From contig JACQVL010000100.1 in assembly GCA_016209865.1 (NCBI GenBank), positions 1 to 6,234 on the forward strand: a DNA stretch of 6,234 nt. The letters are read 5' to 3'. Origin of the DNA: Candidatus Latescibacterota bacterium (lineage in GTDB: Bacteria > JAAXHH01 > JACQVL01). The notes beneath the pieces are model-generated. The model was not told the origin of the DNA. It saw only the letters and a list, made by a program, of their open reading frames with translations, and made no database searches. Below are positions 540 through 6,165 of the stretch, piece by piece (positions within the stretch are counted from its first letter, which is position 1; every line of letters begins with the position of its first letter). Made by a program: the position numbers and the translations under genes.

Positions 540-544
540 GGGAA

Positions 545-552
545 CACCTCTT
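545..552 (-). promoter_or_regulatory. Ribosome binding site of the ThDP enzyme gene
   Basis: On the minus strand AAGAGGTG lies 5 nt before the ATG at 539. It is a strong Shine-Dalgarno match. It settles the start codon and therefore supports the N-terminal twin-arginine signal as a translated part of the protein. Confidence 0.75.
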
Positions 553-612
553 GTGATGATGGAGAGTCGCCAGGGATGGAGCCTGATGGCTCACTGGTCA
601 CCCAACAGTAAG

Positions 613-629
613 AACAAGAGGCGTGCCAA
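613..629 (-). promoter_or_regulatory. Sigma-54 (RpoN) -24/-12 promoter for the ThDP enzyme gene
   Basis: The minus strand from 629 to 613 reads TTGGCACG, then CCTC, then TTGTT. The RpoN consensus is YTGGCACG-N4-TTGCW. Every fixed position agrees except the -12 C, which is T. The GG and the G of the -12 dinucleotide have exact spacing. The predicted transcription start is about position 602, giving a leader of about 60 nt before the ATG at 539. The gene immediately upstream encodes a sigma-54 activator, which strengthens the call. The imperfect -12 element could lower the activity. Seen by eye; no scoring matrix was run. Confidence 0.7.
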
Positions 630-2367: not shown

Positions 2368-5300
2368 TCAGCGCAATTCCCCTTCCTGCGGTGGTTGCCT
2401 CTTCCCTTTTCGCCTTTTCGCTGCTTTCTCCGCGACCAGGAGCGTGCACCGAAATTCATTCCCCTGACCCGCCACACTCCTCACCTCGATCCGTCCCCCC
2501 TGCAGTTCTGCCAGTCGCTTCGCAATCGATAAGCCTAACCCAGACTCTCCTCTCACGATCTCGGCGTCCCCGACCTGAGAGAACGGCTCGAACATTCCCT
2601 CCAACTCCGATGCCGGAATCCCTTCCCCTGTGTTCTGCACGACCACGCACACCCGCTCCGCATCCTGGATGACTCGCACTTCTACCCGTCCCCCACTACG
2701 GGTCAACTTCAGGGCATTGGTTACTAAATTGACCAGAATCTGGTGCACCCGAGTGGGGTCGGCCCATGCCAGCACCACCGGTTGCTTCACCTGTAATGCG
2801 AGGGTGATATTCTGCTCCATCGCCTGCGGCTGAAGGGCTTGTATCACATCCTGGGCCACTTCCTCGACGGAGACCTTCATCAACGTCAGTTGCAACTGGC
2901 CGGCTTCAACCCGTGCGAGATCCAGTAAATCGGCGATGAGCCGGTCCAGCCGGTTCGTATTCGCCTGGACGCGGCTGAGAGAGTACTGTTGCTTCTCGGT
3001 GAGCTCCCCCCCAATGCCTTCGAGCAGGTTGTCCACCGCCCGCTTGATGGCGGTCAGGGGGGTACGCAGTTCATGGGAAACATGGGAAATCAATGCGGAC
3101 TTGAGCTGATCCAACTCCTGGAGTCGGGCATTGGCTGCGGCTAACTCCCGATTCTGCGCCTCCGACTGACGGAAATCCAGATACCGGGCGTAGGCCACCG
3201 CGAACGCATTCGCCAGCGTCTCTACCAGCGACACATCCGTCTCTGACAGGGGGGTCTCGCTGCCCACGTAGAGCATCCCCTGAACGAACGGCACAAAGTG
3301 GAGGTGCAGGGCCTCCGGCGGGGCTTTTCCATCCAGGAACCGTTGCCGCTCAATCGGCTGGCCCTGAGCCTGGAGAAACTCGAGCCACTCCAGGAACGTC
3401 TGGCGGTCCCATCGCGTGACATACCGCAGCCGCTTCCGCCAGTGTGTCACCACCTCCTGACTGATCCCAAAGCGATCAGAAGGCAAGTCCAACTCACCGA
3501 GGCCGACACCCAGAGGATTCATCAGGGTGATCCTCATCCGTTTCGCCTGCTCATCCACGATGATCACCCCGAAGCGACGTAAGGGGACCTCCAGCGTTCG
3601 TAATCCCTCACGGATCATGGCGGTGATCCGATCCAGGTCAGCGCTCGTCTGCATCCGGGCGATCTCTGCACGCACCTGATCCACGACCCGTTCCTGCTTA
3701 CGCTGTGCGACAAATTCATGGATCCGTATGTCTATCGTCGCCGGGGTGACCGAGTAGACCAGGTCTCGGTCGACCGCCTGCACTTCAAACGTGTGGCGTC
3801 CGCGCGGCAGGTCCTGGTATTCGACCCGGCGCGCCCGAGTGATCTGCCAGTCGTGGTCGTAGCCGGTGAGCCGGTACCTGTACATCATCGCCTCCGGCCG
3901 GGTCTTGAAGCTCTGTCCGTGGAACTCGAAGGCGATCAGACGCACACTGGCAGGGATGGCCAGAACTGTGACCCCCGTGTACCGGCGATCCGACACTACC
4001 GCGTCGATGATGACGTGAGGGGGAGACGGTGCTGGAAGGCGATAGCGCGTCACCCCTTTGTTGGTGCCAAACCAGAAGGCCCCGGTCTGATCCTGCAGGA
4101 TCGCATACACATTATTGCCCGCCAGGCCATCCGGCCGGATCATCGTCTGAAAGACCTGGCCATCATACCGGCTCACCCCACCACCTAAGGTCCCGACCCA
4201 GAGCGTCCCGGCCCGATCCTGGAACAGCGACCGCACCATCGTATCTGCAAGGCCATCATGAGTGGTAAACGTGATCCAGGTCTGCCCATCGTACCGACTC
4301 ACCCCCCCGCCTTCAGTCCCGATCCAGAGCTGCCCTGCTCGATCCTCCAGCAGCGACGTCACCTTATTGCCAGCCCGCCCATCGTGGGGGGTAAACGTCG
4401 TCCAGGCCTGCCCATCGTACCGGCTCGCCCCGCCGTTCGTGCCGACCCAGAGCGTCCCCGCCCGATCTTCCAGGATCGCATACGCGTTATTGCCCCCCAG
4501 ACCGTCAGCGATGGTAAATGTCGTCCAGGTCTGCCCATCATACCGACTCACCCCTCCGCCGATGGTGCCGACCCAGAGCGTCCCCGCCCGATCCTGGAAC
4601 AGCGACCAGACCGTATTCCCCGCCAGGCCGTCGGCGATCGTGAACGTCGTCCACGTCTGCCCATCGTACCGACTCACCCCACCAGTCGTGCCGACCCAGA
4701 GCATCCCCGCCCGATCCTCTAAGAGGGACACCGCGATATTCCCCGCCAGGCCGTCGACGGTCGTGAACGTCGTCCACGTCTGCCCATCGTACCGGCTTAC
4801 CCCACCCCCATACGTGCCGACCCAGAACATCCCTGCCCGATCCTCTAAGAGGGACACCGCGATATTCCCCGCCAGGCCGGCGGCGGTCGTGAACGTCGTC
4901 CACGTCTGCCCATCGTACCGACTCACCCCGCAAAACGTACCGAACCAGAACTGTCCCTCTCGATCCTCGAGGATGGCATTGACCACGTCGCTCGCCAGCA
5001 CACTCGCGTCTTCGGTGAAAGTAGCCCACGTGTGGCCATCGTATCGACTGATGCCACTGTCGGTCCCAAACCAGAGCGTGCCCGTCTGGTCCTGGAAGAT
5101 GGTATTCACTCTATTAGCCGCCAGGCCGGCGGCGGTCGTGAACGTCGTCCACGTCTGCCCATCGCACCGGCTCAGACCGCCCTCAGTCCCGACCCAGAGT
5201 TGCCCTTCTCGATCTTCCAGCAGGGACACCACGATATTCCCCGCCAGGCCGTCGACGGTCGTGAACGTCGTCCACGTCTGCCCGTCGTACCGACTCAGAC

Positions 5301-6165
5301 CGCCCTCAGTCCCGACCCAGAACCTCCCTGACTGATCCTGCACGATCGAAGACACGTGATTGCTCGCCAGGCCATCATCGGTCGTGAACGTCGTCCAGGC
5401 CTGCCCATCATACCGGCTCAGACCGCCCCAGGTTCCGAACCAGAGTGTTCCGACTCGATCTTGGAGGATCGAGCGCACATCATCGCTCACCAGACCATTG
5501 TCTGTCGTGAACGTCGTCCACGTTTGCTCATCATACCGACTCACCCCACCGGCAGTCGCCACCCAGAGCGCCCCTCCTCGATCCTGCAGGATCGACCAGA
5601 CGTGATTGTATGCCAGGCCGTCCGTTTCGGTGAAGGCGGTCCAGGCATAGCCATCGTACTGGCTGACTCCCCCCTTGGTTCCGACCCAGAGGATGCCTGC
5701 TCGATCCTGCAGGATCGAGTGGACGCTCCCACTGGTCATCCCATCTGTCGCATCATAGGTGCACCAGTGGCCTGTTCCCGCTCCCGCTTGTTTTTGCGTC
5801 CCTCGTCCTGCCGGCATGACCGCGCCCGGTCCCGCCGGGACCTCGTAGAACGAGAACTCGTGACGGATGAGGCCGTCGGACTGGGTAGTCCCGAAGAGGG
5901 CTCCGACACGTCGTAACCCTTCTACGGCAGCCGGGTCCTTCCGGAACACCTGCCACTTGTTGAGCGCCTCCGCCGGGGTTTGGCATTCGAGGAGCCGACT
6001 GACGATGCCCTGAGGGGACATCCGCCCTTGCTCTGACGACACCTCAAAACCATGCCGCCGCAGCAGGGGCACGAGCTGCTGCTCGTACACGTCGTCGAAC
6101 TCGGTCAGGCGTTCGTGCGGGATCCAGCAGGAGAGCCGAATGAGTGTTCTGGCGGAGAGGGGCAT
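2368..6165 (-). CDS. Large double-propeller sensor histidine kinase
   Basis: 1265 residues. In order: an alpha/beta domain (about 5-110), distantly like NIPSNAP or antibiotic-monooxygenase folds; a Gly/Ala/Pro linker (about 110-131); 14 two-component propeller repeats (about 132-708, Reg_prop type, each with W-T-x-F ... DGL ... I-L-x-D-R-x-G-x-LWVGT-x-GG); a Y_Y_Y domain (about 735-815; [12 protein letters not shown]); a helical connector; a GAF-like domain (about 835-990); a coiled coil; HisKA with SHELRTPL and phosphoacceptor His1031; and HATPase_c with N box NLVTNALK (1146-1153), G1 NTGEGIP (1178-1184), F box FEPFSQV and G2 GLGL (1209-1212). It ends in a basic tail. Known relatives, the Bacteroidetes hybrid kinases, sense sugars in the periplasm. 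Here I see neither a signal peptide nor a membrane segment, so it is probably cytoplasmic. It lacks a receiver and should signal to the regulator encoded next. ATG 6165 has no Shine-Dalgarno but directly precedes the first strand of the N-terminal domain. Confidence 0.93.
4042..5769 (-). repeat. 14 tandem propeller-blade repeats of 123-126 bp inside the kinase gene
   Basis: Fourteen in-frame units of about 41-42 codons encode the blades. Some copies are nearly identical as DNA. 4688-4794 and 4814-4920 differ at 4 of 107 positions at a 126-bp offset. 4735-4785 and 5233-5283 are identical over 51 bp, four blades apart. 4871-4915 and 5120-5164 are identical over 45 bp, two blades apart. Units with an extra Gly (GGGVSRY) encode only blades 8, 10, 12 and 13. 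Fourteen units fit two seven-bladed propellers, as in known propeller kinases. Counts were made by eye from the translation. Confidence 0.92.

Follow-up and report, generated by a model that had tools for sequence, protein, structure and literature searches.

Background

The closest described arrangement to the locus analysed here is that of Desulfovibrio vulgaris, in which the activator DVU0569 is described together with the ald gene DVU0571 and a sigma-54 promoter of this neighbouring gene (PMC4641369). Here, likewise, the gene that follows the activator gene encodes an enzyme and has a predicted -24/-12 promoter, with a conserved motif upstream. Unlike the DVU0569-ald pair, the present locus has a response regulator as activator, with a propeller kinase as its partner, and the putative output is a Tat-type ThDP enzyme. 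The sigma-54 contact loop of such activators has the canonical sequence GAFTGA. The NorR variant G266N, with an asparagine at a glycine of GAFTGA, still opens sigma-54 promoters, is freed from regulatory-domain restraint and is constitutively active (PMC2941729), and the natural loop variants GAFTDA and GAFTHA have been listed as compatible with activation (PMC4641369). The regulator described below resembles NorR G266N as a predicted sigma-54 activator with asparagine at the fifth position of GAFTGA; the NorR substitution was engineered in a protein regulated through a GAF domain, whereas the asparagine of the present regulator is natural and lies behind a receiver domain.

The other parts of the locus also have described counterparts. 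Hybrid and propeller two-component systems carry the same combination of Reg_prop, Y_Y_Y, HisKA and HATPase domains in one protein; in contrast to these, the present locus has a separate NtrC-type regulator and a kinase that, by hydropathy, has neither signal peptide nor transmembrane segment. ThDP enzymes of the benzoylformate decarboxylase and acetolactate synthase type have the same three TPP_enzyme domains as the enzyme encoded here, which differs from them by its twin-arginine N-terminus. A literature search for a system combining a Tat-ThDP enzyme, sigma-54 and a propeller kinase found no relevant paper.

Results and discussion

Organisation of the locus

The stretch of DNA analysed (the window) is one whole contig of 6234 bp, C38, from a 3.75-Mb genome assembly of 356 contigs. 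All three genes of interest lie on the minus strand, in the order propeller histidine kinase (2368-6165), NtrC-type response regulator (870-2306, 478 aa), a gap of 330 nt, and Tat/ThDP gene (3-539). A domain search placed the Reg_prop propeller repeats, Y_Y_Y, HisKA and HATPase of the kinase in a single protein with no strong transmembrane segment. By hydropathy, the kinase lacks both a signal peptide and a membrane-spanning segment, and the stretch between Y_Y_Y and HisKA is soluble. Its orthologue in genome G015, a relative from the same phylum, has both a signal peptide and a transmembrane segment, so that the location of the sensor seems to differ, with a predicted cytosolic position in the window and a periplasmic one in G015.

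The end of the contig truncates the ThDP gene. The window encodes the N-terminal 179 aa, and the remainder is found on contig C75 (555 aa), which overlaps C38 by 252 bp with 8 mismatches; the join may therefore be between strain variants. All three TPP_enzyme domains are accounted for, the N domain in the window and the M and C domains on C75. The closest solved relatives of the enzyme are benzoylformate decarboxylases, and the fragment scanned scored under the NCBIfam equivalog cut-offs. The twin-arginine motif SRRGFIRG is present at its N-terminus and similar motifs occur in those homologues with readable starts, suggesting that the enzyme is probably exported via Tat. On C75 a SpoIIE-type phosphatase gene (L048 3760-4602) overlaps or directly follows the ThDP gene, and is probably part of the circuit output.

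The same genome encodes a ThDP paralogue (L049 68-1840), 59% identical over the N-domain, whose open reading frame has no twin-arginine N-terminus. Tat-ThDP enzymes were also found in many metagenome-assembled genomes labelled Acidobacteria (Bryobacterales, Thermoanaerobaculia and Holophagales; L051-L101), and the same neighbour genes recur around many of these.

A -24/-12 element precedes the ThDP gene

The sequence TTGGCACGCCTCTTGTT (TGGCAC-N5-TTGT) is located at 629-613 on the minus strand, 74 nt ahead of the ATG of the Tat/ThDP gene, and predicts a transcription start near position 602. It differs from the consensus TGGCACG-N4-TTGCW by a single mismatch: the -24 GG and the spacing are exact, and the -12 reads GT, not GC, with a T in place of the C. 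The initial annotation had reported a near-perfect -24/-12 element of exact spacing at this position and strand, directed at a ThDP gene just downstream of a sigma-54 activator gene, and both the element and the gene arrangement were borne out. The -12 T was counted against the promoter reading. Sites with two or fewer mismatches were present in 97 of 200 shuffles of the window, so a match is unsurprising in the window alone and permits no strong statement; the genome context was therefore used.

The genome contains one full-length rpoN gene (contig C190, E 3e-61) and 14 strong matches to Sigma54_activat. The pattern TGGCAC-N5-TTG occurs at 24 sites genome-wide as compared with 23 for the reversed control pattern, and the raw count by itself thus shows no significance. 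Placement was assessed by gene calling on 1.13 Mb of the genome, in which all 24 sites were included; since the sample was drawn in part to contain them, their number is biased, but their placement is not. Of the 24 sites, 16 fall in upstream zones, taken as the intergenic DNA in the 350 nt ahead of a gene of matching orientation; these zones cover 4.6% of the sampled strand-bases (P about 2e-16). When the spacing was varied in the pattern TGGCA[CT]-Nk-TTGC, a peak of 30 sites was observed at k=5 and every other spacing gave 0-4, in a comparison somewhat biased by the same choice of sample. The base following TTG in the 24 sites is C in 21, T in 2, G in 1 and A in none. The two TTGT sites of the genome, the one in the window and one on contig C26, are both promoter-placed. 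From the genome-wide placement of the TGGCAC-N5-TTG sites, a chance match at 613-629 was rejected, and the element very probably serves the ThDP gene as a true sigma-54 promoter.

In four cases, on C38, C140, C265 and C134, a -24/-12 site pointing in the same direction lies no more than 400 nt behind an activator gene. The three further sites are at L134 3143-3157, L141 4207-4221 and L137 6841-6855, and the genes that follow are a TonB-dependent receptor gene on C140, a CcmF-like gene on C265 and a response regulator gene on C134. For the TGGCAC class, about 0.07 such layouts were expected and 3 were seen. Another activator of this genome (L140 8753-9811) has the loop GAFTDA, with a divergent -24/-12 site at 10116-10130.

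Complementarity between the promoter and the ribosome-binding region

The ribosome-binding region of the ThDP gene, ACAAGAGGTGTTCC (541-554, minus strand), forms an inverted repeat with the promoter arm at 614-627, to which it is complementary at 12 of 14 positions, or 13 of 14 if G-U pairs are counted. This raises a speculative extra layer of control, which we regard as unlikely: the -24/-12 sequence, when carried in read-through RNA, would pair with the ThDP ribosome-binding site and silence it, while RNA started at 602 would lack the arm. The promoter would thereby serve a second purpose, locking out translation that escapes regulation. The pairing energy, -20.1 kcal/mol, is the strongest among the genome's 25 sigma-54 promoters (next -14.7); among mismatched promoter/RBS pairings, 0.17% are as strong. 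Opening of the start region was predicted to cost approximately 17 kcal/mol in RNA from 640 as against approximately 8 in RNA from 602, and this difference of approximately 10 kcal/mol is again the largest of the 25 (next 5.3). However, for RNAs beginning at 800 or 869 competing pairings cut the difference to roughly 0-4 kcal/mol, the Shine-Dalgarno sequence of the short RNA also pairs with coding sequence, and no orthologous sequence exists for covariation. A genome-wide rule of promoter/RBS pairing was rejected, own pairs averaging -8.3 kcal/mol and mismatched pairs -8.6 kcal/mol. The further proposal, that the element is a dual device acting as promoter in DNA and as anti-RBS arm in RNA, with enzyme made only from activator-started RNA and the -12 T adding a pair to the helix, is also unlikely.

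The regulator and candidate enhancer sites

In the preferred reading, 613-629 is the promoter of the ThDP gene and is opened by the adjoining, kinase-phosphorylated regulator through upstream dyads; taken together, the sequence evidence makes this likely. The propeller kinase would phosphorylate the NtrC-type regulator encoded beside it, which would then bind two or three TGGTC-N6-GACCA-like dyads approximately 170-220 bp upstream. The bound regulator would loop to sigma-54 RNA polymerase and open the promoter, with transcription beginning near 602 and giving the ThDP enzyme, probably along with the SpoIIE-type phosphatase encoded behind it.

The regulator has the complete NtrC-type domain set: receiver (Response_reg, PF00072), AAA+ (Sigma54_activat, PF00158) and Fis-type HTH (PF02954). 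Its contact loop reads GAFTNA, and that of the G015 regulator NAFTGA. The non-canonical loop was counted against the preferred reading, and a literature search on the GAFTNA loop found no paper. Given the asparagine variant of NorR and the natural loops GAFTDA and GAFTHA, it is plausible that the window regulator acts on sigma-54, perhaps under altered control.

Among the 16 genomes examined for the phylum, G015 alone besides the present one has a close orthologue of the regulator (55% identity), and a Tat-ThDP orthologue (60%) is likewise confined to it. The propeller kinase again adjoins and precedes the regulator in G015, which means that one distant relative has kept the pair. The gap between the two G015 genes contains two perfect TGGTC-N6-GACCA dyads, TGGTCGATAATGACCA and TGGTCATTATCGACCA, 28 nt apart; farther downstream is a sigma-54-like site, TGGCACAATCCCTGCA. 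In the coordinates of that locus (L234), the twin dyads occupy 7242-7285, right behind the kinase stop, and the sigma-54-like site is at 7118-7134, upstream of the regulator. The twin dyads and this site suggest that the G015 regulator may be self-regulated.

Three similar dyads cluster at 762-829 of the window, in the gap between the regulator and ThDP genes. The first, TGGTCGATTGTGACCG on the plus strand (814-829), has one mismatch to TGGTC-N6-GACCA and lies approximately 220 bp before the predicted start; the second, CGGGCGACTCTGACCA (785-800), and the third, TGGGCGGTTCTAACCA (762-777), have two mismatches each. Not one of 315 further intergenic regions, 5000 random 330-nt intergenic windows or 3000 shuffles reached the score of this cluster; these figures are supportive rather than blind, since the similarity of the dyads had been noticed before testing. 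In a weaker test, dyad 1 was identical to a G015 dyad at 13 of 16 positions, a value reached by 31 of 2000 random intergenic windows. Elsewhere in the genome TGGTCGATNNTGACC has three exact matches, all inside genes. The pattern GGTCNNNATCGACC, with 37 matches in the two genomes, was dropped as too loose. The dyads at 762-829 are probable candidates for enhancer sites bound by the regulator.

Conservation of the predicted circuit

Upstream DNA was searched at 51 Tat-ThDP homologue loci, which come from other phyla except that one is G015's own contig. No -24/-12-like site was found in the 21 kb of upstream DNA from these loci, and none of the 51 has an activator adjoining the ThDP gene, the nearest clear one being approximately 7 kb upstream at a single locus. 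The Tat-ThDP gene of G015 is apart from the regulator; it is preceded, at a distance of approximately 27 nt, by the stop codon of an rpoN fragment that lies at the start of a contig. Both the separation of gene and regulator in G015 and the 51 loci with no site were counted against the preferred reading. No rpoN match other than this fragment (L050 / L235 1-212) was found in that genome, and the position of the ThDP gene behind it is a second, different tie to sigma-54.

The initial annotation had suggested conservation of 613-629 in orthologous intergenic regions as a check; 0 of the 51 homologue loci carry a -24/-12 site, and no orthologous intergenic region exists. It had also proposed a compact circuit of three genes, and this was upheld in part. 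A sigma-54 promoter of the ThDP gene, probably driven by the adjoining regulator, is supported in view of rpoN, the functional-looking -24/-12 sites across the genome, the activator-then-promoter layout seen three times elsewhere and the candidate dyads shared with the G015 system. Conservation of the circuit was not supported, and the SpoIIE-type phosphatase gene behind the ThDP gene means that it is not strictly one of three genes. The GAFTNA loop, the dyads and the complementarity between promoter and RBS are additions to the initial annotation. As far as these loci go, the predicted sigma-54 link to the ThDP enzyme is lineage-specific, and not a trait of the family.

Alternative explanations

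An alternative is that the sigma-54 promoter is real and is opened by another activator, the adjoining regulator working elsewhere. The choice among 14 strong activator matches, the distance between regulator and ThDP gene in G015 and the non-canonical GAFTNA loop all point that way. Nevertheless, the dyad cluster is common to the gap in the window and the gap beside the orthologous G015 regulator, and the recurrence of the activator-then-promoter layout in this genome favours the neighbour; this alternative is improbable. That the element is a chance match, with the ThDP gene read from a weak sigma-70-like promoter where the regulator gene ends (873-844, minus strand; TTGACA-18-CACAAT, 10 of 12) or in transcripts that run on from the kinase-regulator operon, agrees with the T at -12, with the homologue loci and with a search of 500-900 that found no terminator-like site, but is highly improbable given the concentration of TGGCAC-N5-TTG sites, both TTGT sites included, in promoter zones and a dyad cluster at an enhancer-like distance.

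Conclusions

With the adjoining regulator as the likely activator, the locus adds a well-supported case to a known type of switch, and its combination of parts is unusual. The 16 promoter-placed TGGCAC-N5-TTG sites indicate that a standard sigma-54 regulon is in use in this lineage. For a propeller-kinase/NtrC-type two-component system from a little-studied, uncultured phylum, the analysis provides a testable wiring in which the probable output gene, the promoter and the candidate enhancer sites are named to the base. An exported-type ThDP enzyme that is present in many Acidobacteria assemblies is here probably under sigma-54 control.
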